From: Acidobacteriota bacterium
Lineage (GTDB): Bacteria; Acidobacteriota; Blastocatellia; Pyrinomonadales; Pyrinomonadaceae
DNA length: 64,000 bases
Assembly: GCA_003385635.1 (NCBI GenBank)
Contig: QQUY01000002.1
Coordinates: 310,001-374,000, forward strand
Direction: 5' to 3'
Under the pieces are notes generated by a model, which ran no database searches, was not told the origin of the DNA, and saw nothing but the letters and a program-made list of their open reading frames with translations. The position numbers and the translations under genes are program-made. Positions 6,000 to 62,740 of the stretch are shown here, in pieces; positions within the stretch are counted from its first letter, which is position 1, and the number at the start of each line of letters is the position of its first letter.

Positions 6000-6180
6000 T
6001 TGCAGTACCGATCTTCTTCGGCTCCGTAGGAGCCGGATGTCTGTAGAAAGTCGCCCTCACAAAGAGCCGCGCTCCGTTAGGAGCGCAATCTACTCGCGAA
6101 ACATTCAGCCCCGATGGGGCTGGGTTCACCGTCTACAGACCCACGCTACAGACATTTGGCTCCGATGGAGCCGGCGACCT
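6000..6180. repeat. Short palindromic repeat cluster
   Basis: The hairpins GGCTCCGTAGGAGCC (about 6020), GCTCCGTTAGGAGC (about 6070), CAGCCCCGATGGGGCTG (about 6106-6122) and GGCTCCGATGGAGCC (about 6160-6174) alternate with TGTCTGTAG or CTACAGAC flanks. They are the same class as at 1160-1322 and 18920-18950. Confidence 0.6.
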
Positions 6181-8689: not shown

Positions 8690-9410
8690 GGATGGAATCG
8701 CGTGTTGCGCGAATTTCAAATGTCAGATTTCATATTTCAGAGGAAGAGAAAGAATTAGACACAGATGAACACAGATGAACACAGATGAAGGTAGATAACT
8801 CGTTGGCCAGAGCGCTGAGTATCCTGAAACATCTGTGTTCATCTGTGTCCGAAGAGAATTTCAAATTTCAGATTTCAGAATTCAGAGGAAGAGAAAGAAT
8901 TAGACACAGATGAACACGGATGAAGGTAGATAACTCGTTGGCCTGAGCGCTGGGTATCCTTAAAGATCTGTATTCATCTGTGACCGAAGAGAATCTCAAA
9001 TTTCAGATTTCATTTTTCAGAGGAAGAGAAAGAATTAGACACAGATGAACACGGATGAGTTGAGATGACTCGTTGGCCTGAGCGCTGGGTATCCTTAAAG
9101 ATCTGTATTCATCTGTGACCAAAGAGAATCTCAAGTTTCAGATTTCAAAGGAAGCAGAAGAATAGGACACGGATAAACACAGATGAAGGTAGATAACTCG
9201 TTGGCCAGAGCGCTGGGTATCCTTAAAGATCTGTATTCATCTGTGTTCAAAGACAATTTCAAATTTCAGATTTCATACATCAGAGAAAGAGTAAGAATTA
9301 GACACAGATGAACACGGATGAGTTGAGATGACTCGTTGGCCCAGGATCTGAGTATTCTTTAAGATCTGTATTCATCTGTGTTCAAAGACAATTTCAGATT
9401 TCAAAGGCCT
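8690..9410. repeat. Array of five palindromic ~95-bp elements
   Basis: Five units start at about 8757, 8902, 9037, 9164 and 9300 (spacing 127-145 bases). Each has inverted ends (CACAGATGAACACAGAT at the left, ATCTGTGTTCATCTGTG or a variant at the right) around a conserved core containing AACTCGTTGGCC and GGGTATCCTTAAAG. Linkers are rich in CAAATTTCAGATTTCA. No ORF of note lies inside. The end sequence resembles that of the 143-bp elements at 28853, 33312 and 34735, so the families may be related. Confidence 0.8.
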
Positions 9411-12985: not shown

Positions 12986-14233
12986 GTGAGCGACTCCAAA
13001 AAACGCCCAAAAGACCCTCCGCCGGACGATTTCTCCAAGACCGTACTGAACATCGACTCAGACGAAGAAGATTCGGGGGACTGGGACAAGACCTCGTACA
13101 ATAACGCGCCCGATGCGCCCGCGGATGACTGGGGAAAGACCGTCATCAACTACGATTCCTCACTTGAAGAGGACAATCCGGCGGATGACTTTGGCGCGGG
13201 CTCCGGCCGTTCCGGAAGCTCTGAACAGCCCGACTGGGGAATGACCCAGACAAACGTCCATTTGGGTGACGACTTTGAGGCCGAGGAAGAATTCGGAGAG
13301 GACGAGGTCGATACGGCCGCAACCAAGCACGTAATTCACATTCCGGAGCTCGACCGCAAGAAGTTCAAGATCCCGCCAACTCCTACCGAAAAGATAGAGC
13401 AGGAGAGGAAGGAAAAGCGAAAATCCGGCGGCGTTCCTACGTGGTTCTGGGTTTCCGCCGGGCTGATGACCTTGTTCTTCATTTCCCTGGTGATCATTGG
13501 GGGCGTCTGGCTGGCACTTGAATACTGGGGCCGGGACTACGAGGTTGTTGTGATCGGAGCTCCAGCCGACAGCCGATTCTTCCTGGATAACGAGGGAGAG
13601 TGGGGAGTATCTTCAACTGGGAACTCCCACGTTCTGAGCGGGCTCAAGCCTGGGGACCGCGAGATCATCATCCTGTCGAAGACCAGGGATTGCGAGCCGA
13701 TCCCGATCGCTTTGGGCGAGGGGAATCGAAGTGAACAGGTCACTGCGATCTGCAGGCCAAAGGCCAACACGGATACGATCTCGGAAAAAGCCTGCGACGA
13801 GACACGCGTTGTCGAAGACCGTGAAAAATGTGCGGAACAAATACTCGACACGCTTGGCAATCCACCCGATCTTGACCGCCTCGTAAAGGCTCTCAACTGG
13901 CTGATAATCAACTTTGAGCCCAATAAATACGACATTCCCGACGCAAGAAAGCGTATTCTTACCAAAGCCGCTATACACATAAAGAACCTGCCTGACTCGG
14001 TCAAGATCGAAGTAGGCGGCCACACCGATTCGGACGGCACTCCCGAAACGAACCAGCCGCTGTCGGAGAATCGCGCTAAGGCCGTTCGTGATTTTCTAGT
14101 AAACATCGCTGACGTTCCGCCGGCCAGGCTTGAGACGAAGGGTTACGGCGAAGACCGGCCAAAGGCCAGCAACGATACCGAGGAAGGCAAGTTCGACAAC
14201 CGCAGGATCGAGTACACGGTTATAAGTAGATAG
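12986..14233 (+). CDS. OmpA-like peptidoglycan-binding protein with cytosolic repeat tail
   Basis: This is a 415-residue membrane protein starting at a GTG. Residues 1-150 are acidic and disordered and contain four spaced copies of a DDW.KT-like motif (14-19, 31-36, 47-52, 82-87). One membrane helix spans about 151-180. A PEGA-like beta domain (YEVVVIGAPADSRFFLDNEG) follows, then a C-terminal OmpA domain from about 305 with GGHTDSDGTPETNQPLSENRA and NRRIEYTV, which bind peptidoglycan. Topology suggests an N-terminal cytosolic tail and a periplasmic wall anchor. The threonines in the repeated motif could be kinase or FHA targets, which is inference. Confidence 0.85.
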   Translation: MSDSKKRPKDPPPDDFSKTVLNIDSDEEDSGDWDKTSYNNAPDAPADDWGKTVINYDSSLEEDNPADDFGAGSGRSGSSEQPDWGMTQTNVHLGDDFEAEEEFGEDEVDTAATKHVIHIPELDRKKFKIPPTPTEKIEQERKEKRKSGGVPTWFWVSAGLMTLFFISLVIIGGVWLALEYWGRDYEVVVIGAPADSRFFLDNEGEWGVSSTGNSHVLSGLKPGDREIIILSKTRDCEPIPIALGEGNRSEQVTAICRPKANTDTISEKACDETRVVEDREKCAEQILDTLGNPPDLDRLVKALNWLIINFEPNKYDIPDARKRILTKAAIHIKNLPDSVKIEVGGHTDSDGTPETNQPLSENRAKAVRDFLVNIADVPPARLETKGYGEDRPKASNDTEEGKFDNRRIEYTVISR

Positions 14234-14241
14234 TCTGTTGC

Positions 14242-14708
14242 GTCTGTCGGGTCTATCGGGTCTGTCGGGTGTTTCGGGTCTATCGGATCTCTCGGGTCTG
14301 TCGGGTGTCTCGGGTCGGTTGGGTGTCTCGGGTCGGTTGGGTCTGGCGGGTCGGTTGGGTCTATCGGGTGTCTCGGGTCGGGTCAGTTCGTTGAGTCGAA
14401 GGACTTTTTTGCCCCGGGCTATCCTCCGTAGCCCCTTCGGGGCAAAGAATCCTAAAACTCAATCGACCGAATGGACTCAATAGACCCGATAGACTCAATC
14501 GACTCAACAGACTGGATATGTCGCGGCTAAAGCCGCTGAAGGAGGTGTTGCCGTCTTACCCGGGGCTGCGCCTTTGGCTTGCCCCGGGCTATCCTCCGTA
14601 GCCCCTTCGGGGCAAAGAATCCTAAAACTCAACCGACCGAATAGACTCAATAGACCCGACCGACCCAACCGACCCGACAGACCCAACAGACCCGACAGAC
14701 TCAACCGA
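14242..14708. repeat. Nonamer tandem arrays and a 66-bp direct repeat between convergent genes
   Basis: From 14242 to about 14385 some fifteen 9-base units of the form GTCTNTCGG follow the OmpA-like stop codon. From about 14640 to 14708 the reverse complement (GACCCAACA type units) runs up to the selB stop codon. Between them a segment beginning TTGCCCCGGGCTATCCTCCG is present twice, at about 14407-14470 and 14577-14645. The mirrored arrays could pair in single-stranded DNA or RNA at the end of both genes. No gene is supported here. Confidence 0.75.
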
Positions 14709-14709
14709 C

Positions 14710-16632
14710 TCAAAGCACCAGTCTCTTGTCTCCCGCTCTTCTCGTTACCTTGATTGCGTCGAAATATTCCAGCAAAGGGATTGCCCATTTTCGAGAGATT
14801 CCCGCCAGATCCTTGAACTCCGGTACCGTGATCAGACGATTCTCCGCCTCTTCCTCGGCATACTTCTTCAGTTTGGTGATCAGTTCCGCGATAGCCTCTT
14901 TAGCAAAGAACATTTCGTCCGTCACCTTAAGGACCTCGGCCGAATCCACAAGCATCTGAAAGATCTTTCGCGCCTGATCCGGCTTCACAGAGGTGCCGGC
15001 GGAAGCTTCGGCGATGGCATCCTTTAGGACGGGTACTTCAAGGCCTGCGCCAAGGTAGATCCTGGAAAGAGAATCCAGCACTTTCGATTCTTCAGCACTC
15101 AGTTCTCTCGAATGCGATGACAGCCGAACGATGTCCCTCTCGGACACAAGCTTGCCCTCGGCCTGCATTTGCTTCAATGCGAACCTGAAGATGTCCTCAG
15201 GTACGTAACTGCCCGACTGCTCACGCAAGGTCTCCCTGAGCATTCCCTCGGCCAATGGATCGGCGGCGTGATGTTCCTTCAAGAACGCGACGATCGTTTC
15301 GCCGTATTCTGCAAAACGATCTGACGAGACCCAGGTCTTCTCGGTCTTTGTCGCATCGCCAGCGGCAACCAAGTCCGCTAGCAACTCGCCAACCAGATCA
15401 GGGCGGATCCCCGTCGCTTCCTGAATCTGTTTCGCACTCTTGCCATTGATGCCGGCCGAAAGCAGAAGGTCGAGCACAAGCGCTCGGGGCATCAGATCGC
15501 CATCAAGCAACGCTTCAAGACGTGTCCGCGTCGAGGCGAGATCTTTCTTTTTGTGTTTTTCCGCAAGCGGAACGAGGACCGTTCCTCCCGCTATCGTGAA
15601 CTGAGGCGAATACTGTCGGACGATGAATCTGTCTGACGGGGCCGCAACGACTGGCGTCTCCAGCCGAAACTGGACGAGGTCCGAATCACCGGGAGCGATC
15701 TCGCGAGACTCGTTGAGCACCTCTACCCTCGCCAATACTTCCGAAGTCCCTATGTGTACTCTGACCCTTTGCCTTGATCGAAGCGGCCTACTTGTTGCGG
15801 CCAGGACCTCGACCTGTGTGTCGAACATCTGAGTCGGTTTGAATGATCCCGGGTCGGCGAGCACCGTGCCCCTCGGGATCTGATCGTGATCTATGCCTCC
15901 GAGATTTACCGCGGTCCTGCGTCCGCCAAAGGCTATGTCAACGTCGTCGCCGTGGGTCTGTATCCCGCGCACCCTTGCCGTCACCCCGGATGGAAGCAGG
16001 TCCATTTCTTCTCCGGACCTTATCTTTCCGGCCGAGAGAGTGCCGGTGACTACAGTCCCGAATCCCTTTACGGAGAAGCTCCTGTCGATCGGCAAACGAG
16101 TCGCAAATGGCGACTCGCGCTCCGATCTATCTGCCGCCGCCTGCGAAAGCCATTCACGGATCGCCTCGACCCCCTCCGTGGTCTTTGCCGAGGCGCGGAA
16201 AACCGGCGCATTCTCCAGGAACGAACCCGCGACAAGCTCCGCGATGTCCATTTCGACAAGCTCTATGAATTCTTCTTCGGCAAGATCGGATTTCGTGACG
16301 ACGATCAGGCCGCGCTCAGTGCCAAGTAGACGGCAGATCTCGAAGTGTTCGCGCGTTTGGGGCATCACGCCCGAGTCGGCGGCGACTACGAGCATGACCA
16401 GATCAATGCCGCCCGCGCCCGCAAGCATGTTTTTCACAAACCGCTCGTGGCCGGGCACATCGACAAAGCTGATCCTCGCGGAATCCGTGCGGAGATCCGC
16501 AAAGCCAAGGTCTATGGTTATGCCGCGTTTCTTTTCTTCAGGAAGGCGGTCGGCATCGATCCCGGTCAGCGCTTTCACAAGCGCTGTCTTTCCGTGATCG
16601 ATATGCCCGGCGGTTCCGACGACTAGATCCAT
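14710..16632 (-). CDS. selB: Selenocysteine-specific elongation factor SelB
   Basis: The 640 residues match SelB, the GTPase that brings selenocysteyl-tRNA to UGA codons with a SECIS hairpin. The G domain shows GHIDHGKT (9-16), RGITIDLGF (36-44), DVPGHE (58-63) and TKSD (113-116, a variant of NKxD). EF-Tu-like beta domains follow to about 340. The C-terminal part is a chain of winged-helix domains ending in the family signature [13 protein letters not shown] and [10 protein letters not shown], which contacts SECIS RNA. No selA, selD, tRNA-Sec or obvious selenoprotein gene is present in this window. The stop of the next upstream gene lies 10 bases before the start, so the two genes may be cotranscribed. 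Confidence 0.95.
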
Positions 16633-23299: not shown

Positions 23300-23850
<551 letters not shown>

Positions 23851-23938
23851 TTGACCATCTGAACTGCTTCGATTACCATCGTCAAACCGTTCTTGAAATC
23901 CAATACTTTCCGCCCGCGTTTTGAGCCCGCTCGCCGTT

Positions 23939-28852: not shown

Positions 28853-28995
28853 TTAGCCACAGATTAAGGGGATGAACACAGATCACTGAAGGGAGCTATA
28901 TTGGCATCCATCCAACGTACCCAATATTCATCTACGCTGTTCAGGTTCATCAACCCCCTCCTAGATCCGTGTTCATCCCCTTCATCCGTGGCTAA
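28853..28995. mobile_element. MITE-like 143-bp element, copy 1 (reverse orientation)
   Basis: A 143-base unit has ~30-base inverted ends (TTAGCCACAGATTAAGGGGA... and ...TCCCCTTCATCCGTGGCTAA, a few mismatches). The core contains GGAGCTATATTGGCATCCAT and is in the opposite orientation to the copies at 33312 and 34735. No ORF is inside. It ends three bases before the stop codon of the VOC gene at 28999. Confidence 0.85.
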
Positions 28996-28998
28996 CCT

Positions 28999-29358
28999 CT
29001 ACTTTTGGTAGTGCGGCTGGTACAGCTGGACCTTCACGCCGCCGGGCATTCTGAAGTGCGTGACGAGCCCGAATCCTGCGTCGACTACCTCGCCAACGAA
29101 TTCCACTCCTTTCCCTTTTAGCTCATTGACCGTTTCCCTAATGTCATCGCAATAGAACGATACATCGTGAGTGCCTGCCGGTGCGCCGTGCTTTCCTTCC
29201 GGATCAGACGGATGGACCCCCATATCCGCTTCCGGAAGATCGAAGATCAGCCAGCCTTGTCCCACATCGGTGAAAGTGAAACCAAGCTTGTCCTTGATGA
29301 ATTCCCGAAGCCCCTCTGCATCGTCTGAATAGAACATCGTATGTACGCCTTTGATCAT
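28999..29358 (-). CDS. VOC-family (glyoxalase-like) protein
   Basis: The 119 residues form one VOC domain: an N-terminal MFYSDDAEGLREFIKDKLGF, a central GTHDVSFYCDDIRETVNELKGKGVEFVG helix-strand unit and a closing LVTHFRMPGGVKVQLYQPHY. It likely dimerises and binds a metal with His and Glu at the usual edge strands, though the substrate is unknown. AGGAGAGTAACT precedes the start. A 143-bp element follows the stop codon almost directly. Confidence 0.83.
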   Translation of the reverse strand: MIKGVHTMFYSDDAEGLREFIKDKLGFTFTDVGQGWLIFDLPEADMGVHPSDPEGKHGAPAGTHDVSFYCDDIRETVNELKGKGVEFVGEVVDAGFGLVTHFRMPGGVKVQLYQPHYQK

Positions 29359-29399
29359 AGTTACTCTCCTTTGTCGGAAATCGTGAAGGGTGACTCGTG

Positions 29400-30120
29400 A
29401 ATGGTGAAACGTAAATCGTGAATAGAGAAGAGATCAGTACCGGGAGCAGTAGCGACCGGTATATGGGGTGTTTACCGCAAAGGCGCGGAGGCGCAAAGGT
29501 TTTTGGGAAAACACCGACTGTGAATAGTTCAAAGTTTCAGGTTCAAAGTTCCAGGTTTGTGGTCGGCACCCCACATTCATATTACCTTGCGCCTCCGCGC
29601 CTTTGCGGTTAATCCAGGTTGGGCCGGTCGCTACTGCTCCCGGTTCTGATCTCTTCTCTATTCACGATTCACGATTCACGATTCTCCATTCTCCATTCAC
29701 GAATATCTGTTATGCCCGTCGCTAGCGCTCCGGGTTCAGATTGTGCCGGTCGCTACCGCTCCCGGTACTGTTTCTTCACCATTCACAATTCACCATTCAC
29801 AATTCACCATTCACGAATATCTGTTATGCCCGTCGCTGGCGCTCCGGGTTCAGATGATCCCGGTCGCTACCGCTCCCGGTACTGATTTCCTCTCTATTCA
29901 CTATTCACGATTCACTATTCACGATTCACCATTCACGAATATCTGTTATGCCCGTCGCTGGCGCTCCGGGTTCAGATTGTGCCGGTCGCTACCGGTACTG
30001 ATTTCTTCACCATTCACAATTCACGATTCATCATTCACCATTCACCATTCACAATTCACGATTTACCATTCACCATTCACCATTCACGATTCACGATTTA
30101 CGATTCACCATTCACGATCG
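29400..30120. repeat. Dense repeat region: ATTCACG heptamers, REP pairs and a MITE-2 copy
   Basis: The 760-bp gap is wholly repeats. A ~136-base element with ACCGCAAAGGCGCGGAGG ends lies at about 29474-29609. REP type A/B pairs occur at about 29622, 29710-29768, 29825-29884 and 29947-30001. Arrays of 7-base units (ATTCACG, ATTCACC, ATTCTCC) lie at about 29661-29704, 29775-29815, 29895-29940 and 30010-30118. A ~120-base unit made of array, REP A and REP B is present about three times in tandem. The last array ends at the dnaE2 stop. Confidence 0.85.
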
Positions 30121-30121
30121 A

Positions 30122-33100
30122 CTAGTGAAAATCATGCGACTCCCCGTAAAGACTTATAAATGACAGCCGCTCGAAGTACATTCCCTTCACAAGCGTCTGG
30201 ATGCCGTTGTTCTCCACCTGTCCCTTTATAAGAAGATACGGGCTCTCGATTATCGTCTGTCTGAACTTGTCGAAAATGTCCGGCATCACGATAAAGTTCG
30301 ATATCCCCATCTCGTCCTCGAGGCTTATGAATAGCACTCCTTTCGCAGTGCCCGGCCGCTGACGGCAGATAACCGCTCCGGCGACCGACACAAGCGACCT
30401 TCTCTTTCTTCTTGTCACCTCTTCCGACGATAGTATCCCTTTTCTGTTCAGCGCGTCGCGGATAAGCGCCATCGGATGGCGTTTTACCGTGAGGCCCGTG
30501 ACCGAGAAGTCCGCGTGAAGGTTCTCCAACTCGTTCATCAGGGGCAGAGGCGAACGCTTCGGCCTCTCGCGCAGGTTCTTCAACAGAGGCCCGACCTTCT
30601 GTATTTCGCGCTCCGCATCCCACAAGGAGCCCCGCCGGTCCTTGCCGAACGTCAATGCCCCCGCCAAAGAAAGCTGCCGTATCTCGCGCTTGTTTATCGA
30701 GGGCACACGCGCCAGAAGATCGGCGATTCCCCCGAACGGCCCGCTCCGTTTCCGCTCCTCCTCGATCTCGAGCCCCGTGCTCTTCCGCAGGCCCTTTACA
30801 TACATCAGGCCGATCCGTATCAGCGGCTTCTTCTGCGGCCCCTCAAGCGAACACAGGTAATCGGAAGATTGTATGTCGATCGGCAGAAATTCCTGCCCGT
30901 GCCGCTCAGCATCCTTGATCAGCGTCGCCGGCGAATAAAAACCCATCGGCTGATTGTTCAGCAACCCGGTCGTGAACGCTGCCAGATAATGGCACTTCAG
31001 GTAAGCGCTGGCGTATGTGATCAGCGCAAAGCTCGCCGCGTGCGATTCCGGGAATCCATAGATCGCGAACGAGTTGACCGCCTTGGCGATCTTCTCCTGC
31101 GTCGCCTCGTTGATACCGTTCCGCTTCATCCCCTCCATAAGCCGCGCGGTGATCTCCGGAACCTTTTTGTCCGCCCGCTTGAAACCGAATGCACGGCGCA
31201 GTTCCTCCGCCTCGCCGCCCGAAAAATCGGCGGCGACCATCGCGATCTTCAGAAGCTGTTCCTGAAAAAGCGGGACACCGAGCGTCTTCTGCAGGATCGG
31301 CTTGAGCCTCGGGTCCATATAATCGACGTTCTCCTGGCCAAGCCGCCTGCGGACATACGGCCCGTACATCTGTCCGACGATCGGACCGGGGCGTATGATC
31401 GCGACCTGCACCACGAGATCGTAAAACTTCGTCGGCAGTGTCTTTGGCAGAGAGCTCATCTGCGCGCGGCTTTCGACCTGGAACAGCCCGACCGTGTCCG
31501 CCTTCTGCAGCGTCTTGTAAACAAGCGGATCGTCCTTGGGGATCGTCGCCAGATCGACCTCTTCGCCGTGATGATCGCGCACGAGATTTACCGTGTCGCG
31601 GACCGCGGCGAGCATTCCAAGGCCCAGCAGATCGACCTTGATGATCCCGACGTTGGCGCAGTCGTCCTTGTCCCACTGGACGACGACGCGGCCGGGCATC
31701 GTGGCGGGCTCGAGCGGAACAACGTGGTCGAGCTTTCCTTTGAAGACGATCATCCCGCCGGAATGCTGGCCGAGGTGGCGGGGATAATCCTGTATCCGCT
31801 CGACAAGCTCGGCGAACTTCGCGATCCGTTTGCTGACACCCAGGTCAGAATTCTCGCGTAGCCTTTCGAAGAAATCGCCGTCCGAATGCCTGAAATGCGA
31901 GGCGAGCTTTGCAAGCTTACCTACCTGTTCCTCCGGGATCTCGAACACCTTTCCGGTCTCGCGGATCGCCGAGCGCTGACGGTAAGTGATGATGTTGGCT
32001 GTCATCGCGGCGCCGTGCTCGCCGTACTTTTGATAGAGATACTGGATAGCGAGCTCGCGGTCGGGCCCGCTCGGAAGGTCCAGATCGATATCCGGACACT
32101 CTTCGCGCTCTTCGGAAAGAAACCGTTCGAACAGAAGATCGCTCGTCGCCGGATCGACCGCGGTTATGCCGAGCACGTAGCAGACCGCACTGTTCGCCGC
32201 CGAACCTCGGCCCTGGACGAGTATGTCGTGGCGGCGGCAGAAATCGACGATATCCCATACAACGAGGAAATATCCGCACAGATCGAGCTTTTCGATCATA
32301 TGAAGTTCCTTCTCGATCTGTTCGGCGACCTTCTTCGGCACCTTTCCGCCGTAGCGCTGGTAGGTTCCCTTGCGTGTGATTCGGCGGAGAAAGCTCTGCA
32401 TCGTTTCACCGTCGGGCGCCTCGTAATCGGGGAACGTGTAGCCGAGCCGGTCCATCGAGAACTCGACCATCGATGCGATCTCGCCCGTCATCTCGACTGC
32501 TCGTTTCTGATCTGAAAAGAGCTTCTCGATATAAACGGAAGGCTTCACGAACCGTTCGGCGTTGAGCGACATAAGCCGTCCGGCAGTGCCGACCGTCGCC
32601 GAGTTGCGCAGACAGGTGAACAGGTCGGAGATCTCCCGGTCGTATTTGTCCGCGTACAGAACGCCGTTCGTCGCGACGAGCGGAACGCCGCTGCGTTCCG
32701 AAAGTTCGATCAGGTGCTGGTTGATCCGCTCCTCGTCGCGGCGCAGATGGCGCTGGAGCTCCAGATAGAAACGATCTTTGAAGATCGAGCGCAGGCGGTC
32801 GAACTTGTGGAGCGCGATGTCCTTGTCGCCGCTTCTTATCGAAGAGGGAAGCAGGCCGTCTTCGGGCGATCCGGAAAGACAGATCAGTCCCTTGTTGAAC
32901 TGTTCAAGGTCGTCGAACGTCGCGCGATGCTCTCCCTTCTCGGCGCGCAGTTTTGCGGTGGTCAGAAGCTGGCACAGGTTCTGGTATCCCTCAAGCGTGA
33001 CGGGGATCACGGGAAGCGCCGACTCGTCGAACATCGTCACCTCGGCCCCGATGACAGGCTTGATGCCGAGCTTCTTTGCCTTCCGGTGAAAACGGACCGC

Positions 33101-33235
33101 TCCGCTGACGTTGTCGCGGTCGAGCTGTGCGATCGAGGGGATGCCGTTCTCCGCGGCGGCCTCCGCAAGGCGCTCCGGCAGCGACCCGCCGCGCAGGAAA
33201 CTGAAAGCTGAAGATGCGTGAAGCTCGACGTACAT
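30122..33235 (-). CDS. dnaE2: Error-prone DNA polymerase DnaE2 (ImuC)
   Basis: This is the C-family polymerase of the SOS mutasome, copying past damage without proofreading. The 1037 residues are the usual length. They comprise an N-terminal PHP domain (ELHASSAFSFLRGGS, GAEVTMF), the palm with the metal-binding motif CPDIDLDLPSG near residue 380, fingers and thumb with VQWDKDDC and QGRGSAANS, and a C-terminal OB fold (VSVAGAVICRQRPGTAKG) ending in the family tail SHDFH. It lies downstream of imuB and imuA on the same strand. A heptamer array begins immediately after its stop codon. Confidence 0.96.
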   Translation of the reverse strand: MYVELHASSAFSFLRGGSLPERLAEAAAENGIPSIAQLDRDNVSGAVRFHRKAKKLGIKPVIGAEVTMFDESALPVIPVTLEGYQNLCQLLTTAKLRAEKGEHRATFDDLEQFNKGLICLSGSPEDGLLPSSIRSGDKDIALHKFDRLRSIFKDRFYLELQRHLRRDEERINQHLIELSERSGVPLVATNGVLYADKYDREISDLFTCLRNSATVGTAGRLMSLNAERFVKPSVYIEKLFSDQKRAVEMTGEIASMVEFSMDRLGYTFPDYEAPDGETMQSFLRRITRKGTYQRYGGKVPKKVAEQIEKELHMIEKLDLCGYFLVVWDIVDFCRRHDILVQGRGSAANSAVCYVLGITAVDPATSDLLFERFLSEEREECPDIDLDLPSGPDRELAIQYLYQKYGEHGAAMTANIITYRQRSAIRETGKVFEIPEEQVGKLAKLASHFRHSDGDFFERLRENSDLGVSKRIAKFAELVERIQDYPRHLGQHSGGMIVFKGKLDHVVPLEPATMPGRVVVQWDKDDCANVGIIKVDLLGLGMLAAVRDTVNLVRDHHGEEVDLATIPKDDPLVYKTLQKADTVGLFQVESRAQMSSLPKTLPTKFYDLVVQVAIIRPGPIVGQMYGPYVRRRLGQENVDYMDPRLKPILQKTLGVPLFQEQLLKIAMVAADFSGGEAEELRRAFGFKRADKKVPEITARLMEGMKRNGINEATQEKIAKAVNSFAIYGFPESHAASFALITYASAYLKCHYLAAFTTGLLNNQPMGFYSPATLIKDAERHGQEFLPIDIQSSDYLCSLEGPQKKPLIRIGLMYVKGLRKSTGLEIEEERKRSGPFGGIADLLARVPSINKREIRQLSLAGALTFGKDRRGSLWDAEREIQKVGPLLKNLRERPKRSPLPLMNELENLHADFSVTGLTVKRHPMALIRDALNRKGILSSEEVTRRKRRSLVSVAGAVICRQRPGTAKGVLFISLEDEMGISNFIVMPDIFDKFRQTIIESPYLLIKGQVENNGIQTLVKGMYFERLSFISLYGESHDFH

Positions 33236-33311
33236 GGATCAGGTATCAGAGATCAGGTATCAAGTATCAGGTATCAGAACCCGGAGCGGTAGCGACCGGC
33301 GGAGAAGGAAC

Positions 33312-33452
33312 TAGCCACAGATGAAGGGGATGAACACAGATTTGGGAAGGGGTGGATGAACCTGAACAGCGTTGATGAATATTGGATACGTTGGATGTAT
33401 GCCAATGTAGCTCCCTTCAGTGATCTGTGTTCATCCCCTTCATCTGTGGCTA
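33312..33452. mobile_element. MITE-like 143-bp element, copy 2 (between dnaE2 and imuB)
   Basis: This 141-base copy has inverted ends TAGCCACAGATGAAGGGGAT and ATCCCCTTCATCTGTGGCTA (essentially perfect over ~30 bases) and a core with GGAAGGGGTGGATGAACCTG and TATGCCAATGTAGCTCCCTT. It fills most of the 226-bp gap between imuB and dnaE2, next to a REP type B copy at 33277. A transcript crossing it could form a long hairpin. Confidence 0.88.
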
Positions 33453-33461
33453 AATACCCTC

Positions 33462-34694
33462 TCAATCAAATCCGCCCTCGATCATCCCCTCACCGGGGCC
33501 GTTGACCACCACCCGGTAGACCGCGCCCGATTCCGTCTCGACATCCCATTCGTCCCGCGCGAACACATCCGCGCGGTGCCATTCCGCGTCCGCCCGCCAG
33601 GGGCCGGCCGCGGTCCGTATCATCTGCCGCTTTCCCTTTATCGATATGACCCTCGGCATACCGTTCTCGAACGCGATCCGTGCCCTGACCGGTTTGGGAT
33701 AACGGTAGTAGGCAGCAAAGACCACCTCGCCTGCCTTTTCGTCAAACTCGCGTGTCAGAGGCGAAAGGTTCTCGGTCATCGAGAACGGCCGGCTCCACGA
33801 ATCCCGAAGCCTCGGCACGCCTATATCCTTCACGCCGACCACCTTCTTCAGCTTTGAAACCACCAGGTCCAGATTCTCCGGCTCAAGCACCGCGCCCGAG
33901 TAGAGATTGTTCTGCACGACGCGCGGGCGGCAGGACTCGAACTCCGCCTCGACGCATTCGATCCCGAATTCCGGAGGGTCCTGTTCGACCTTCGACACGA
34001 TCTGCCTGAGCCATATCTTTTCGTTGAGCACGGGAAAGACCAGCCGCACCTTGTATTCCTTTCTACCGCCTCGGCCAGAAAGGATGATGTTTGCGGTCTG
34101 CGTCGAAAGGCCCGTGTACGAGAGGTTCTCGAACACCTGCCGGACACCGGCGGAGAGTATGAAGTGCAAGGGCTCGATGGTCTTTATCTCGCCGTCCAGC
34201 CGGCGCGACCAAAGGAAGTTGTTGTCGCGGACGTTCCATCCCGGCGCACGATACGCGGTGCCCGAGGCCGCCTCGCGATGCGGGATTATCTCCAGCCCGA
34301 AACGCTCGACCATGTCGTCTTCCGGAAGCTCCCTGAACTCGCCAAGCGTGACTATTCCCCACGCGTCCATCAGCTCGCGGAACTCGCGGTCGGCATCGAG
34401 CGCGTCGACCGGGATCTCTTCCAGCTCTTTCGGGTCCTCGGCGGTGGCAAAGCTGACTCCTTCGCGATGACGCGCGAGCATAAGCGCCGCGGCGGCGTTG
34501 TCGGAAACTCCGATCGCCTTGTATGCGCCTTCGCTGAATATCTCTTCGGCCAGCCGTCTCGCTTTCCTCTCAGCGCTTCCGGTTATGTCAAAGATCAGCA
34601 TCCGCGGCCCTACGATCTCTATGTTGGGCGAATGCCCCCGCGCCGCCTCAAGCGCCTGAGAATTGTCTGACTTTGATCGGATCGCGATGTACAT
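33462..34694 (-). CDS. imuB: ImuB, Y-family polymerase-like mutasome subunit
   Basis: The 410 residues are taken from the ATG at 34694, which matches the family start (MYIAI); the open frame runs to 34742 through repeat sequence. ImuB is a catalytically dead Y-family polymerase relative that links ImuA and DnaE2 to the beta clamp. The helix-hairpin segment DADREFRELMDAWGIVTLGEFRELPEDDMVERFG and the little-finger-like C-terminal half fit. It is somewhat shorter than many ImuB proteins. No ribosome-binding site is seen; instead a REP type B copy abuts the start codon. Confidence 0.85.
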   Translation of the reverse strand: MYIAIRSKSDNSQALEAARGHSPNIEIVGPRMLIFDITGSAERKARRLAEEIFSEGAYKAIGVSDNAAAALMLARHREGVSFATAEDPKELEEIPVDALDADREFRELMDAWGIVTLGEFRELPEDDMVERFGLEIIPHREAASGTAYRAPGWNVRDNNFLWSRRLDGEIKTIEPLHFILSAGVRQVFENLSYTGLSTQTANIILSGRGGRKEYKVRLVFPVLNEKIWLRQIVSKVEQDPPEFGIECVEAEFESCRPRVVQNNLYSGAVLEPENLDLVVSKLKKVVGVKDIGVPRLRDSWSRPFSMTENLSPLTREFDEKAGEVVFAAYYRYPKPVRARIAFENGMPRVISIKGKRQMIRTAAGPWRADAEWHRADVFARDEWDVETESGAVYRVVVNGPGEGMIEGGFD

Positions 34695-34734
34695 AATCAG
34701 TACCGGGAGCGGTAGCGACCGGCCCAAGGGAAAT

Positions 34735-34877
34735 TTAGCCACGGATAAAGGGGATAAACACGGATTTGGGAAGGGGTGGATGAACCTGAACGGCGTTGAA
34801 GAATATTGAATACGTTGGATTTATGCCAATGTAGCTTCCTTTAGTGATCCGTGTTCATCCCCTTCATCCGTGGCTAA
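34735..34877. mobile_element. MITE-like 143-bp element, copy 3 (between imuB and imuA)
   Basis: This 143-base unit is in the same orientation as copy 2. Its ends are TTAGCCACGGATAAAGGGGA and TCCCCTTCATCCGTGGCTAA, and the core is about 90 percent like copy 2 by eye (GGAAGGGGTGGATGAACCTG shared). It lies 40 bases upstream of imuB. The remaining gap holds a half MITE-2 end (CTCCGCGCCTCTGCGGT) and a REP A/B pair at 34911-34963. Confidence 0.88.
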
Positions 34878-34989: not shown

Positions 34990-35643
34990 CTACCCCTCTT
35001 CATTGGTCAATGACATCTGTTCATTGGTCATTGATATCGGTTTTCTCATCTCCAGTTTCACCGACGAGCCGCGCATCACTTTAAAACCCGACTCGCCTGT
35101 CCATTCGCTCGCCTCTTTTTCTACCCGCACCGACTGGTGCGACGCCGAACGGAGCCTTGTCTCCTCAAGCGTCACAAGCAGAACAGCCGGCGTGTCCTTC
35201 AGACCGACCTTGAACCGGAACCAGTACGAACTCGGCATACGGTCCAGAAAATCCTTTTCCGCAAGGCTCAGATCAAGCCATATCGCTCCGAACAGTCCCG
35301 ACTGGATCAGGTAGTCGGTCGACAGCACCGCCTTCTTCGGATCACCTCCGCATTTGACCCAAAGGATCTTGTCCAGCTTTACGCCGCTCTTTTCGGCCGA
35401 CGGAGGATCAAAACTGTCCGAAGCGTCCACGACCGCGCATATGTTGTTCGAGCGCGTCAGATTCGCGATCATCGAAAATACCAGCCCGCGCTTGCCGCTG
35501 CCCTCTGCACCGGTCAGCTCGCAGATCCCACCGCGGATGAGACCGCCGTTCAGGCGGTCGAACGGCGCCACGCCGGTGAGGACACGCTCCGCCTGCCTTA
35601 ACTCCGCGAACTCCCGGAGCTTTGCGACCCCTTTGGCGATCAC
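34990..35643 (-). CDS. imuA: ImuA, RecA-like mutasome subunit
   Basis: The 217 residues resemble ImuA, a shortened RecA relative that works with ImuB and DnaE2. A Walker-A-like segment GAEGSGKRG is at 45-53, after TGVAPFDRLNGGLIRGGICEL, and a beta strand rich in AVLLVTLEE follows. The order lexA-imuA-imuB-dnaE2 on one strand strongly supports the call. The last codons (SMTNEQMSLTNEEG) are translated from TGGTCAATGA-type heptamer sequence, so the natural C-terminus appears to have been extended or replaced by a repeat. Confidence 0.85.
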   Translation of the reverse strand: MIAKGVAKLREFAELRQAERVLTGVAPFDRLNGGLIRGGICELTGAEGSGKRGLVFSMIANLTRSNNICAVVDASDSFDPPSAEKSGVKLDKILWVKCGGDPKKAVLSTDYLIQSGLFGAIWLDLSLAEKDFLDRMPSSYWFRFKVGLKDTPAVLLVTLEETRLRSASHQSVRVEKEASEWTGESGFKVMRGSSVKLEMRKPISMTNEQMSLTNEEG

Positions 35644-36024: not shown

Positions 36025-36618
36025 TCACTTCTCATAGTGCCTGACAAGTCCGACCAGGACACCCTGGATCGTCACCCTGTCCGCATCGACCTCGATCGTC
36101 TCGAAGTCCCTGTTGGCCGGTATCAGCTGGATCTTCCTGCCCGATTTCCGGAACGTCTTCACCGTCGCGTTCTCACCGTCGATCAGCGCCACGACCACGT
36201 CGCCGTTCGACGCCGTGCTTGCATGCCTGAGCGCGATCCGGTCGCCGTCGAGTATCTTCTCGTCGATCATCGAGTCGCCGCGGACCTCGAGCGCGAAGTA
36301 ATCGTGTCCGGGTTTGAGCATCGTTGCGGGCACGGACATTTTTTCCGGCGTCAGGACCGCCTCGATCGGGTGACCGGCGGCGACTATCCCCAGAAGAGGC
36401 ACAGTCGTCCACGCCCCGTCACCGGCGTCATCGTCGTACGAAACGAGGCTGACCCCGCGCCAGCGTCCCTTCGAGCGCTTTATGAAGCCCTGTTCTTCGA
36501 GCGAATCGAGCACCTTGTACAAAACGGCGTTCGACTTCGTCCCGATCGCCCGCTTCATCTCACCCTGCGTCGGCGAATCGTTCCTTTTTAAAAACTCCAG
36601 AAGTTTCTCTTCCTGCAT
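36025..36618 (-). CDS. lexA: LexA-type SOS repressor
   Basis: The product has 197 residues from the ATG at 36618 (a GTG at 36627 is the alternative start). The N-terminal ~55 residues form a winged helix-turn-helix (SPTQGEMKRAIGTKSNAVLYKVLDSLEEQGFI), and the C-terminal half is a S24 self-cleavage domain. The scissile bond is Ala81-Gly82 (GIVAAGHP), the nucleophile Ser116 (GDSMIDE) and the base Lys154 (ATVKTF). RecA filaments would trigger autocleavage and release the SOS genes. It heads the mutasome genes imuA, imuB and dnaE2. The HTH is unlike the E. coli LexA type, so its operator need not match the E. coli SOS box. Confidence 0.9.
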   Translation of the reverse strand: MQEEKLLEFLKRNDSPTQGEMKRAIGTKSNAVLYKVLDSLEEQGFIKRSKGRWRGVSLVSYDDDAGDGAWTTVPLLGIVAAGHPIEAVLTPEKMSVPATMLKPGHDYFALEVRGDSMIDEKILDGDRIALRHASTASNGDVVVALIDGENATVKTFRKSGRKIQLIPANRDFETIEVDADRVTIQGVLVGLVRHYEK

Positions 36619-36632
36619 AACAGACACTCTAC

Positions 36633-39713: not shown

Positions 39714-40033
39714 TACCGCAAAGTCACAGAGGCGCTGAGAAACATGAATGTGGGGGATCGCCTGCGGGGGTTGGATTCTTGATTTGAAACTCTAAAGCAA
39801 TCCCAAGAAGAAACTTTGAAGTCGTCACAATCGGAGTTTCCCAAAAACACTTTGCGTCTCAGCGCCTTAGCGATTGATTCGTGAATGGAAAAAATGACCG
39901 CGGAGGCACAGAGGCGCGAAGTAGTTTGAATGAAGGGATCGCTCGCAAACGTTGAAATCTGAAACCGAAACTTTGAAGTAGTAACAAATGGTGTTCCCCC
40001 AAAAACTCTTTGCGTCTCAGCGCCTTCGCGGTT
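39714..40033. mobile_element. Two tandem MITE-2-like elements
   Basis: Two units lie at about 39714-39872 and 39897-40033. Each runs from an ACCGCNNAG..ACAGAGGCG start to a CTTTGCGTCTCAGCGCCTT end, which is its inverted counterpart. The core contains TTGAAATCTGAAACCGAAAC-type sequence. They sit directly downstream of the 1069-residue lipoprotein gene. Open frames inside are not coding. Confidence 0.7.
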
Positions 40034-40081
40034 GATCCTCATCTTACCCGTTGCAGGCGGGATGCCTGCGTTCCGTCTCGA

Positions 40082-44737: not shown

Positions 44738-45188
44738 GACCGCGGAGTCGCAGAGTAGCAACGTAGTTTGAATGTGAATTCCCGTCAGCAAGCCCTGAAC
44801 TCTGAAGACGAAACTTTGAAGTTCTCTTAAGAAGTGCTTTTCGAAATCCCTTTGCGCCTCAGCGCCTTTTCGGTTGATCCTTGAACGGAAAGAAATTGAC
44901 CGCGGAGGCGCAGAGTCGCGAAGTAGCTTGAATGTGGGGCGCCGACCGCAGACCTTGAACTCTGGATCTGAAACCCTGAAGCAATCAAAACGAGCGATTC
45001 CCCAAAAGACTTTGCGCCTCAGCGCCTTTGCGGTTGATCCGTGAATGGAAAGGAAATGACCACGGAGGCGCAAAAAGAACTTTTAAGTAGGAGATCATTC
45101 GCAAGCGTTGAAATCTCAAACTGAAACTTTGAAGTAATCACAAACGGTGTTTCCGTAGAACTCTTTGCGTCTCAGCGCCTTTGCGGTT
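44738..45188. mobile_element. Three tandem MITE-2-like elements
   Basis: Units lie at about 44738-44874, 44899-45034 and 45059-45188. Each runs from ACCGCGGAG.CGCAGAG to TTTGCG(C/T)CTCAGCGCCTTT.CGGT and shares CGCAGAG and GAAACTTTGAAGT-type core words. They fill most of the gap upstream of the two-lipoprotein unit. Together with the two copies at 39714-40033 they bracket that unit. No coding frame inside is credible. Confidence 0.72.
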
Positions 45189-45287
45189 GATCCCGATCGG
45201 ATTCCATTGCAGGCGTGGGCCTGCGTATTGTGATTGGTGTTAGAATCTTAGGAATCCGAATCCAACAAATACCCCAAAGCAAAGTAT

Positions 45288-50046: not shown

Positions 50047-50364
50047 ATGTCCACACTTGAGATCGCCGAACGCGACAATTCCGAAGGGACCGTCCTTGAT
50101 CTGACCGGTGACATCATTTTTGGTGAAGCCAACACGGTACTGAGGACAGCAATACGCAACCGCTTGAGGGAAGGCAAATCCGATATCAGGCTGAATCTAG
50201 ATCACGTCGGGTACCTCGATTCGTCTGGCATCGGCGAGTTGATCTCTGCATTGACAGCGGTCAATCGCGAAGGCGGCCGGCTTGTGTTGATGAACCCGGG
50301 CGACAGGATCATGCGCCTTTTCGAGATCGCAAAGCTGACGGAGATATTTGAGATAGAGAGATAG
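50047..50364 (+). CDS. STAS-domain anti-sigma factor antagonist
   Basis: The 105 residues are a single STAS domain (SpoIIAA/RsbV type). The phosphorylatable serine stands in DSSGIGEL (Asp58, Ser59, Ser60), where a partner kinase/anti-sigma factor would phosphorylate it. The unphosphorylated form would bind and neutralise that partner. No anti-sigma or sigma factor gene is adjacent, so the target pathway cannot be named from this window. The preceding gap is full of repeats and the gene has no obvious operon partner. Confidence 0.9.
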   Translation: MSTLEIAERDNSEGTVLDLTGDIIFGEANTVLRTAIRNRLREGKSDIRLNLDHVGYLDSSGIGELISALTAVNREGGRLVLMNPGDRIMRLFEIAKLTEIFEIER

Positions 50365-50369
50365 TGGAA

Positions 50370-50630
50370 TGGTAAATAGTCAATCGTGAATCGTGAATCG
50401 TGAATAGTGAAGAGCGAATGGTGAATGGCTGATTGAGAATTGAGGGTTTCGTCTTCGAGTCGCTAGTTGATTGTGAATGGAGATCCCAAAGCTCTAGAGT
50501 TGTCGCGTCGCCGATTCTCGCCCTCCCTTACGGTCGGGCTACAGACACCATTCGCTATTCACGGTTTACGATTCACTATTCACGATTCACTATTCACGAT
50601 TTACGATTCACGATTTACGATCTACCTTTC
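50370..50630. repeat. ATTCACG/CGTGAAT heptamer arrays
   Basis: Units of 7 bases (CGTGAAT and variants) lie at about 50385-50425 and the reverse-strand form (ATTCACG, ATTTACG) at about 50565-50625, separated by ~140 bases of unremarkable sequence. The two arrays face each other and could pair. Confidence 0.65.
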
Positions 50631-50638
50631 GCTAACCT

Positions 50639-51157
50639 ATGCCCCTCTGCCCCAAGTGTTCATCTGAGGTACGTTCATTTGACGGAAAGTGTCCTTCCTG
50701 CGGGTACGACTTGAGGGACACCAACACACCGACCGAGATCAAGAGTCCGGATGACACTCCCACCGAGATAAAGAAGACAAAGGCTGAGGAAAATATTCAC
50801 ACCACGGCGTCCGGTTCCGGGGCACGTTTTGTATCCGGCCACGTGCTTGCCGGCCGCTACCGGATCGTCGGGCTGATAGGCCGGGGCGGTATGGGAGAGG
50901 TCTACAAGGCCGAGGACCTGGAGCTTGACCAGACAGTCGCTTTGAAGTTCCTGCCGGAAGAGCTTTCTAAAAAGGAAATGGCGCCGCTGCTACGCGGCGA
51001 AGGTTATTTGTTGTCTCTTCACCCGGGGTTTCGCTTCGCTCCACCCCGGGCTAACATCCGTTGCCCTTTCAGGGCGAATCTGACTCAGTACTCATCTCTC
51101 ATCACTCATCACTCATCTCCCAGTACCCATTTCTCAGTACTCATCTCTCAGTACTGA
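50639..51157 (+). pseudogene. Truncated Ser/Thr protein kinase (N-lobe only)
   Basis: The start encodes a zinc ribbon (Cys4, Cys7, Cys18, Cys21: CPKCSSEV...KCPSCGYDL), a Thr-rich linker and the first part of a Hanks-type kinase: [22 protein letters not shown] with the ATP-binding loop and VALKFL with the catalytic lysine. After KKEM the reading runs into palindromic DNA and a 14-base tandem array, giving nonsense residues to a stop at 51157. HRD and DFG motifs and the whole C-lobe are absent. It is either a broken gene or an assembly junction at a repeat. Confidence 0.75.
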
Positions 51158-51240
51158 TCTCTCAGTACTCATCTCTCAGCACTCATCTCCCAGTACCCAT
51201 TTCTCAGTACTCATCTCTCAGTGCTCATCTCTCAGCACTT
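51085..51240 (+). repeat. 14-base tandem array (2 x 7)
   Basis: Units of 14 bases of the form CTCAGTACTCATCT run from about 51085 to 51240 with point changes (CACTCATCTCC, TACCCATTTCT). A GCGCCGCTGCTACGCGGCG hairpin and a CACCCGGGGTTTCGC..CTCCACCCCGGG palindrome precede it at about 50982-51050. The array separates the kinase fragment from the stop of the next gene at 51243. Confidence 0.8.
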
Positions 51241-51242
51241 CT

Positions 51243-54200
51243 TCAGTGGACCCATCGATGTTCGAAAGCCTTTTGCTCCATCTCCTGTCGTGTTTCGCCG
51301 GGCATGTAGTAACTTCCGGTTCCCTCGAAGAAGAAAGGCTGGCGTTTTCGGCCGCCGACCTCGTTCATTGTCGCGGCTTCATAGACACGTCCGTTCAGGA
51401 CGGTATGCGTCACATACTCGCTCCGGCGAATGTCCAAAAGCACATCGCCCTCGATGATCACGAGATCGGCGAGCTTACCCGGCTCGATACTGCCTAAATG
51501 CTTGTCCATTCCAAGGTGCCTGGCGCCGTCGATCGTGCCCCCGCGGAGTGCTTCCCACGGACTAAAGCCGCCCTGGCTCATTATCCAAAGCTCCCAATGC
51601 GATCCAAGACCTTCTCTCTGGCCGTGAGCTCCGATGTGAACACCTACTCCCTTGTCGCGAAGGGTCTTGGCGTATTTGGCAACGTCGATATGGTTGTACT
51701 GGTCATCCGGAGCCGTCTCGCGTCTTATCGCACGCGGATCGATGATAAAGTCCGGTGAGTACCTCATCAGGCGTTCGTTCTTCCAGACATCAGTACGTCC
51801 GTACCAGTACTCCTCACCCATAAGGCCGCCGTACGAAACAACAAAGGTCGGCGTGTAACCATACTTGGTCGCTCCCCATAGCTCGGTAAGGTCGTCATAG
51901 CCGTAGGCGATCGGCAATGAATGTTCAAGGCCGGTGTGCCCGTCAACGAGCATCGTGATGTTCTGATGGAGCTTTCCTCCGCCTTCGGGAACAACCATCA
52001 TCCCGAGCTCGCGAGCCGCCTGGAGGATCTGCTGTCTCTGCGCTCGCCCGGGCTGGTTGTAGCTCTTGACAGAGATGGCTCCCGAATCCTTCATTCTCTG
52101 GACGTGATAAAGCGCGTCTTCGTAACTGTTTACGATCGATTTCGCGCCTACAGACTCAGCACCGTAGAGAATCCTGCCGGTAGAGAAGATCCTTGGCGCG
52201 ACTATCATTCCCGCCTTCTGCATCTCGGCCGCGGAGAAGATCTCCTGTGTGTCGTTCGAGGGATCGTGAATGGTCGTCACGCCAAAAGCGACGTTCGAAT
52301 ACATCGACCAGTTCTGCCTCGGGATTATCTGATTCCGGCCCTGCCCGCCGTGTGCGTGCGCATCGATCAGTCCGGGGATTACAGTCTTTCCTTTGGCATC
52401 GATGACGGTAGCGCCCTGCGGGACCTTTACATCTCGGCGCCTTCCGACCGCCTCGATCTTGTTGTCGCGGATCAGCACGACGCCGTCTCGGATAACTTCC
52501 TGCGTATTGTCGGCGTCGCGCATCGTCACGACGGTTCCGCCGACGATCGCTTTATATCCGCTCGGCTTGTCCGCATCGACCGAGATCGATAGATTCGTGC
52601 CGCTCGCAACCGGTTCAGGAAGCTTTTCCGGGGCGCCTTCGATGAAGTCAAACGCGTCCTTGAGTTCACGCTCGTAAAAGACAGGACCGTGTGTCCAGCC
52701 GACCGCCTGGCTGTCTGCCCTCCATACAAGGTTCTCGCCTGATCTGCTCGAAAGCTTTTTGACCGGGATCGCCTTCGCATCCGGCCCAACTGAAACCAGT
52801 TTCCCGGTCGGCGGTATCGGAGCGACGTAAGCGTTAAACTGCGAGGTAAACGCGACCCATTTCCCGTCGTGCGACAGGCGGAATTCTTCAACGTCGTCCG
52901 CACCATAAACGTGTTCTTTTCGGTCGTCGCCGTTCAGATTCACGCTCGCAAGCTGGCGCTCGGGATAGTCCTTTCCGGGAACCCCGGTCGAGAAATAAAC
53001 CCTTGAGTTGTCGCCTGCGAAATGCGGATCTGAGCCTGAGGTCGACACGCGCTTGTGACCGCTGCCGTCAGTTTTTGCGATGTAGATACCGGGATCGATT
53101 GAGTATTTTGGCGTCAGCAAAAATCCGCCGGAGAACTTTCGGTAGGCGAACATCTTGCCGTCCGTAGAGAACGCAGGCTCTACGTAATGTCCAGGTCCTT
53201 TCGAAACCACTTTCCCGTCCCCGCCCGCGGCAGGAGCGATTCGGACGGTTCCCAGATCCTGATCGTTCCAAGTCGTATAGATAACCGACTTCCCGTCGAG
53301 CGAAAACTGCGGGTAGAACTCGTCGTGATCTTCCTGTTTCGTCAATCGGCGCGTTGTGTTGTTCGAGAGGTCACGAACGTGGATCTTGCCGAGCGCCTGG
53401 AAGATTATCGAGCGGCCGTCGGGCGATCTTTGAGCCCAACGGACCATCTTTACGTCAAACTTGTCCGGCGCAACATCGACGTCGAAACGCACTGCATCGG
53501 CAAACTTCTTCTCTGCCTCGACCGAAACCGGGATGGTCTTGACAGAGCTATCAGAGATCGAGATCCGGTGGAAATTGCCTCCGGTCCAAAATACGATCGA
53601 CTTTGAATCGGGCATCCAGTCGAAATACGCGTAATAACCCTCAGAACCAAATCCCTCCTGAAGGTCTCGTTCCATTTCAAGATGTATCGGCCACTCGAGG
53701 TCGGTTTCAAGATCTTTCAGGAAAAGTGCTGTTTTGTTGCGCACCCTACGAATGAACGCGATGTACCTGCCGTCGGGAGAGGGAGTCGGGATTATCGCGC
53801 CTCCGGTGCCGCTGATAAAACGGTTCTCTTCCGCTTTCTCTATATCGTATCTCGTGATCGCGAAGATCGATTTAAGTGGGTCGCGATTGTAGCTGAAGAT
53901 GAAGCCCGGAGTGATGTCCTCCGTGTAATAGATGTACTTGCCGTCGGGGGAGAACGCGGGATCGGCTATGTTCTTCTGTTCACGCCTTCCGCCTTTTCTG
54001 GATTTGATCACGAGGCCGCCGCCACCGGTCTTGTGATACATCCAGATCTCGCCGGCCGGAATACTGCGGCTCGACATAAAGCCCTTGTTAACGACGATGT
54101 ACTCGCCATCGGGACTCCATTTAGGGCTGTGGATGATGTTTTTCTTTTCCTTGCTGAGTTGTTTCAGGTTCTTGCCGTCGATATCCATTACCCAGAGATT

Positions 54201-62508: not shown

Positions 62509-62740
62509 AGGCCCTCCGGCAAGTTCCCTGGTAAATATCCGGGATTGTAGCACAAGGGGAGAGAGTAAAAGTTCAAAGGTAAAAGGCAAAAAGGCGTCTT
62601 ACGACAACCTGAGTGAACGGAAACGGCGCAGAAAAATATCAGGACCTCACAAATCTAAATATTTACTATTTCCGATTCACGAATTACGATTCACCATTCA
62701 CGATTCACCATTTACCTTTTCTACTTTTCACCTGAAACCC

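Follow-up and report, generated by a model that had tools for sequence, protein, structure and literature searches.

The 64,000-nucleotide stretch analyzed here (the window; contig QQUY01000002.1, positions 310,001 to 374,000, of the Acidobacteriota bacterium assembly GCA_003385635.1) contains three similar intergenic units with long inverted ends, two of which reside among genes of a putative SOS mutasome. What kind of element are these units, and is the mutasome a significant place for them? A first-pass annotation had taken them for a mobilised miniature inverted-repeat transposable element (MITE) of fixed length, with the mutasome as a notable site of insertion. The evidence collected below makes it probable that they are short, gene-less forms of a superfamily of inverted repeats whose long forms carry a gene for a GxxExxY protein. 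That this protein mobilises the elements is a separate proposition, to which slightly less than an even chance is given.

The three units, 141–143 bp long with inverted ends of about 30 bp, are found in two orientations, as annotated. The neighbours of copy 1 (28853..28995, minus strand) are a DUF2461 gene and a glyoxalase-fold gene (28999–29358), whose stop is 4 nt away from the unit; this copy is oriented opposite to the other two. Copies 2 (33312..33452, plus strand) and 3 (34735..34877, plus strand) occupy the imuB|dnaE2 and the imuA|imuB gaps, which confirms their placement between the mutasome genes; copy 2 lies 9 nt past the imuB stop. Over 141 bp, copy 2 is 92% identical to copy 1 and 91% to copy 3, and on 141 aligned columns there are 11 differences between copies 1 and 2, 19 between 1 and 3, and 12 between 2 and 3. 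The boundaries of the three related copies are precise. A stem of about 30 bp is predicted by folding at the ends of each; the arms of copy 2 pair perfectly over 30 bp, and its transcribed strand folds at -73.1 kcal/mol (z = -12.0, none of 200 shuffles being as good). Long-armed hairpins number 13 in the window, all intergenic, and are missing from 47.7 kb of coding DNA and from shuffled controls. The sole Rfam match was to one tRNA.

Elements bearing the 30-bp end type of the trio, hereafter class 1, are dispersed in the source genome (G000; 4.13 Mb in three contigs, assembly 93% complete). A 28-base end pattern matches 24 times in forward and 23 times in reverse orientation, the backward control never, and the matches resolve into 23 convergent pairs and one degenerate site. 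The pairs reside in many contexts, so the family is neither confined to the window nor tied to the same genes; they are found near stop codons, at distances from a few nt up to several tens, and mostly in gaps between co-directional genes (neighbours being the longest open frames, not curated calls). Their size varies from 114 to 169 bp, and the fixed length attributed to the unit does not hold genome-wide.

The end, represented by 33312..33341 (plus strand) and, as located by the end pattern and the conservation profile, by its inverted partner in copy 2 at 33423..33452 (minus strand), reads TAGCCAC[R]GAT[N]AAGGGGAT[N]AACAC[R]GAT. In a profile of 46 ends, 26 positions are fixed and four (8, 12, 21 and 27) are free, and conservation falls at position 31; the outermost TA carries 1.1–1.2 bits versus near 2 bits at the inner end. 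By inspection, the sequence appears to be made up of three words of about 9 nt, each with GAT at its end (CCACRGATN/AAGGGGATN/AACACRGAT). Interiors are unrelated among the elements of the source genome, save in the window trio (3 of 23 with a common core). The shared core of the first-pass annotation thus holds for the trio and not for the other 20 elements, which have only their ends in common. Left and right arms of the same element match at 26.1 of 31 positions, arms of different elements at 26.2 (permutation p = 0.69), and no covariation of the two class-1 arms within elements was found. Within the trio, variable sites are 7 of 8 at free end positions, 0 of 52 at fixed end positions and 14 of 81 in the interior (p = 1e-4 and 8e-4 versus interior, in a small sample of three elements). 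The interiors are recent copies, and yet the free sites vary as if taken afresh from the pool of the genome, which suggests that ends behave as independent units.

Class-1 ends were found in two of 60 genomes searched, G000 and G004, members of the same genus. In G004, a GxxExxY gene (TIGR04256, a PD-(D/E)XK nuclease) is bracketed by two such ends at a spacing of 665 bp, and for this reason flanks were surveyed around GxxExxY genes and around PF05635 genes, which encode the four-helix-bundle "23S rRNA intervening-sequence" protein. Overall, 42 of 50 GxxExxY genes lie between inverted ends of about 9-nt words, and 52 of 60 PF05635 genes between inverted ends made mostly of 7-nt words. The proportions are 15/20 and 17/21, respectively, in G000, G004 and G006 taken together, and 24/26 and 25/27 in an independent, automatically scored set covering the Acidobacteriota. 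Among plasmid loci (Bacteroidota, Gemmatimonadota, Pseudomonadota and Cyanobacteriota), 3 of 4 for GxxExxY and 10 of 12 for PF05635 exceed the threshold. This was placed in each set at the level passed by 5% of mismatched-pair controls, for the plasmids a flank score of 16.5; short arrays of 7 or 8 nt are nevertheless present in the two sub-threshold PF05635 cases. Some plasmid genes of either family reside inside operons (loci L267, L270, L271 and L263: cas10|cmr3, ribonucleotide reductase subunits, cas6|cas4, fabD|fabG).

Long forms mostly span 420–750 bp. A short relative of a long form is found in the window itself: the ends of a short hairpin at 8758..8849, GACACAGATGAACACAGATG, are identical to those of a GxxExxY long form of the source genome (G000:C1:422384). 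GxxExxY genes evolve under purifying selection (pN/pS 0.10–0.33), and their products retain the nuclease residues E, D, ExK and QxxxY; no relative was found by sequence search of the PDB.

Word length separates the two gene families. Around GxxExxY genes words measure 8–10 nt, with one weak best lag of 6 and never 7; around PF05635 genes they mostly measure 7. Heptads were scored at 0 of 41 GxxExxY versus 44 of 54 PF05635 loci (p = 1e-17), a pooled value that includes all plasmid four-helix-bundle cases and counts every locus as independent, though a few are same-genus orthologues. In the Acidobacteriota-wide set alone, in which arms were left untrimmed (they were trimmed by hand in one word-length set), strong periods give 0 of 9 versus 19 of 24 (p = 5e-5). 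Many GxxExxY periods of that set are weak (<0.6) because word spacing varies from 8 to 10. The G004 class-1 long form is itself the weak best lag of 6 in the automatic test, owing to a middle word that differs, and its periodicity is the softest point of the 9-nt assignment.

Long and short forms can share one slot. Between dapE and dapB (names given by sequence inspection), six members of the genus carry GxxExxY long forms with differing end types, and the seventh, G001, only a gene-less hairpin of about 80 bp. Ends are of class 1 in G004 and of the GACACAGATGAACACAGAT type in G000 and G006, and the GxxExxY proteins encoded at the slot in these three are monophyletic (support 0.94); both ends can therefore differ in class while the gene between them is inherited. 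The long forms of G005, G002 and G003 carry a second GxxExxY subfamily; in G005 and G003 its ends are made of CATAG words, and in G002 the right end is of similar type.

At imuB|dnaE2 a class-1 element is kept in G004, and other repeats reside in G006; at imuA|imuB neither relative has a class-1 end, and other repeats are found instead. Between G000 and G004 the interiors at imuB|dnaE2 align better inverted (score 35) than direct (score 6), shuffled sequences averaging -10 (sd 8), a result that would fit inversion in place as well as independent insertion. In 15 further slots G004 or G006 usually hold a different hairpin family in the corresponding gap (e.g. AACCGCAGAGAACGCAGAG, AACAGGATGAACAGGAT, AACGCGAAGGTCGCAAAGG), and some G004 elements combine a class-1 end with an end of another type. 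Homology of interiors was detected by alignment only where class 1 is retained (L053/L119 and half of L034/L149). Homologous interiors at class-changed slots were sought in alignments, none being found, and saturation prevents separating replacement from decay there. Nothing singles out the mutasome as a target, since elements of this end type and of sister types are found in many operons, and the occupant of the imuB|dnaE2 gap differs by species.

A mechanism that would accommodate these data starts from ends that are arrays of about three 9-nt words, convergent around a free interior. The GxxExxY protein, acting by itself or together with a host factor, would recognise the arrays and cut or pair them, and ends, at times whole interiors, would be copied between loci. 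Copying of this sort would keep one end sequence uniform per genome and leave interiors to drift. Once transcribed, each unit would form a stem of about 30 bp, probably cut by RNase III by analogy with the intervening sequences of 23S rRNA, and such cutting would make insertion just past stop codons within operons tolerable. The mutasome units would be ordinary residents, with any effect there exerted only via the stem.

Several points weigh against this picture. No class-1 long form was found in the source genome, 23 of 23 pairs being short at the 93% completeness of the assembly. Long forms look mostly vertically inherited, and mobility is for this reason slow at best. Neither a target-site duplication nor a clean empty site was obtained: flanks show TA only, and the gaps of the relatives compared hold other elements. 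Synonymous sites are saturated or nearly so between G000 and G004, and hence the unrelated interiors of class-changed slots may reflect neutral decay. Arm mismatches on the transcribed strand are G-U in 31 and A-C in 21 cases (p = 0.11); as G-U is not significantly favoured, the pairing pattern lends no support to a role of the stem at the RNA level. Lastly, association is no proof of mobilisation: GxxExxY may simply ride along as a passenger or have been captured.

A first alternative is that the host maintains intergenic stems because they serve to process or stabilise mRNA, and that forms with a gene are secondary captures. The proximity to stop codons, the position mostly between genes of one direction, the very stable fold and the presence in one gap of different hairpin families in different species are all in line with it. 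Yet arms do not covary within elements, G-U pairs are not significantly preferred to A-C mismatches, and conservation across the genome extends to the sequence, beyond what a stem would need; why word length goes with gene family is left unexplained as well. Host maintenance is held to be unlikely as the origin of the units.

Much the same standing, a shade lower, is given to a classical MITE, that is, internally deleted copies of a DNA transposon moved in trans by a DDE transposase reading the 30-bp ends, with TA as the target duplication. Discrete inverted-ended units, a trio with precise boundaries and an outer TA less conserved than the inner end, as expected of a duplicated target, are what this model predicts. 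Recent copies should also share the interior of their source, and 20 of 23 do not; none of the G000 pairs combines class-1 ends with a transposase gene, and the G004 long form bears a nuclease, not a known transposase. Moreover, the flanking TA is no more than a putative target duplication, and the class of the ends varies on an element retained at one slot. Of the mobilised MITE originally annotated, dispersal, discrete inverted-ended units and the boundaries of the trio stand, now joined by gene-bearing relatives; the fixed length and the family-wide core do not, and no target duplication, clean empty site or proven enzyme was obtained.

An origin as REPINs or TIRtrons, doublets akin to repetitive extragenic palindromes (REPs) mobilised by a Y1 transposase of the REP-associated tyrosine transposase (RAYT) type, is improbable. 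Ten Y1_Tnp genes reside in G000, none of them inside the window; doublets with a variable spacer resemble REPINs (PMC3116915), and RAYT genes with long terminal inverted repeats have been described (PMC3733652). Most RAYT genes examined are flanked by other repeats, palindromic in sequence (e.g. GGCTCC-GGAGCC-ATGTCTGTAG), no class-1 end was found in the RAYT regions examined, and class-1 ends match closely no repeat flanking the ten genes; the RAYT or transposase gene with matching ends that the first-pass annotation had proposed to look for was not found among the G000 pairs or the RAYT flanks examined. In addition, a single class-1 end has no internal palindrome and does not fold (0 kcal/mol), nor does either arm alone, versus -6.1 for a REP of the same genome, and the GTAG tag is missing. 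Membership of the RAYT/REPIN group was rejected because ends are not palindromic and lack GTAG, and no cognate RAYT is flanked by a class-1 repeat. An exception among RAYT genes is L075 (2087–2950), set between inverted ends of the related CACAGAT type and adjoining a complete short CACAGAT hairpin, which favours the RAYT model. Ordinary REPINs are found in the window as GTAG-type REP doublets (GCTCCGTAGGAGC..ATGTCTGTAG) at 1171–1323 and 6019–6173, matching repeats beside two G000 RAYT genes (L076).

Passive growth of word arrays by slippage, with inversion by template switching and no dedicated protein, is very improbable: iterated 7–9-nt words do look like slippage products and inverted repeats generally favour template switching, but 26 of 30 positions are strongly conserved in 46 ends, the ends nearly always form convergent pairs, and word length is gene-specific across phyla.

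The genes around the units deserve a cautious naming. The dnaE2 gene (error-prone DNA polymerase; 30122..33235, minus strand) matches NF004225 with 1157 bits. The product of the gene in the imuB position (33462..34694, minus strand) has no Pfam or NCBIfam match, and the name ImuB is therefore based on gene order only; its orthologues in two members of the genus are 87% and 80% identical, and a homologue is detectable in just 14 of 60 genomes searched. In locus L118 (G003:C66, 4493–6484) the imuB homologue was matched as three separate pieces within one open frame of 666 codons, as if split by in-frame insertions. The ImuA-like RecA-fold gene (34990..35643, minus strand; PF00154) matches the ImuA model NF033429 weakly, at 30 bits against a cut-off of 150; lexA (36025..36627, minus strand; TIGR00498) lies nearby. 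The glyoxalase-fold gene adjoining copy 1 (28999..29358, minus strand; PF00903) is missing in G004 at the corresponding place, as is copy 1 itself.

Other hairpins and word arrays reside in the window. Hairpins of GTGAATC-type words, whose length of 7 nt is that found beside four-helix-bundle genes, are located at 29381..29702, where the hairpin is large, and at 50367..50630. Long intergenic arrays of 7-nt words (CTGTCTC, GATTCAC and CTCAGTA types), equal in word length to PF05635 ends, span 23536–23853, 29649–30122, 50353–50653, 51077–51244 and 62629–62736. Inverted arrays of 9-nt words (GTCTGTCGG) at 14215–14415 and 14609–14719 resemble two exceptional 9-nt PF05635 ends (L183, L192). A further hairpin family, with CCGCAAAGGCGC ends and a common interior, GAAACTTTGAAG, is found at 29474–29613, 39787–40043 and 44739–45193, and, unlike class 1, is closer to classical MITE behaviour.

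A broader proposal is advanced tentatively. Two sibling selfish superfamilies, absent from the literature searched and present in several phyla, one with words of about 9 nt and a GxxExxY nuclease, the other with 7-nt words and an S23p-like four-helix-bundle protein, may account for a large share of the iterated-word intergenic hairpins of bacteria; the proteins would read the words and homogenise ends genome-wide, gene-less short forms riding along. Inverted repeats of iterated words between genes (CACAGAG-, CAGGAT- and GTGAATC-like) had no agent in the literature searched. The tie of word length to two small protein families supplies two candidate proteins, each with a matched substrate, and natural long/short pairs in one genome, which make binding, cleavage and mobility directly testable. 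If the proposal is true, the rRNA intervening sequence would be one corner of a general class of intergenic elements, and GxxExxY proteins would gain a lead to their function. In open-access full text GxxExxY appears in passing mentions only and no such element is described, subscription papers and preprints lying outside, so that novelty is provisional; within the openly searchable literature, the repeat sequences gave nothing relevant, and four-helix bundles with inverted repeats gave no result.

Set against known systems, the units share features with several. Like MITEs, they are small, non-autonomous and dispersed, with terminal inverted repeats; class 1 differs in lacking a family core (3 of 23 share one), a proven target duplication and a parent transposon, none having been found. 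Like REPINs (PMC3116915) and TIRtrons (PMC3733652), they are intergenic, hairpin-forming inverted doublets with a variable spacer, present in many copies. Their ends, however, are non-palindromic, lack GTAG and are unlike RAYT flanks, and their gene-bearing relatives carry GxxExxY rather than a Y1 transposase. Multicopy intergenic sequences of Geobacter form many families, some with inverted-repeat ends or octa- and heptanucleotide repeats; the available portions of the two reports propose neither a gene-bearing form nor an enzyme (PMC2700814, PMC2996986). GxxExxY-bearing elements are described for none of these systems, or of those that follow, in the open-access literature searched. The short tandemly repeated repetitive (STRR) heptamers of filamentous cyanobacteria, whose function is still not known (PMC2670836), resemble the elements in their 7-nt words and intergenic hairpins, and PF05635 genes of cyanobacterial plasmids lie between inverted heptad arrays, the identity of which with STRR is putative; STRR would fall in the sibling 7-nt branch, not in the 9-nt branch of the window units. 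Intervening sequences of 23S rRNA, associated with the S23p four-helix-bundle gene in Leptospira and Coxiella, feature long inverted ends, a small open reading frame or none, and excision by RNase III (PMC4990558). They are described inside rRNA genes, whereas the window units, with a predicted stem, are intergenic between protein genes, are made of about 9-nt words and are paired with GxxExxY, not S23p. Both have long inverted ends with or without a gene inside, and in Coxiella, where the stem measures 28 bp, GACAGAT heptads precede S23p (PMC4990558), matching the 7-nt words found around PF05635 genes here.

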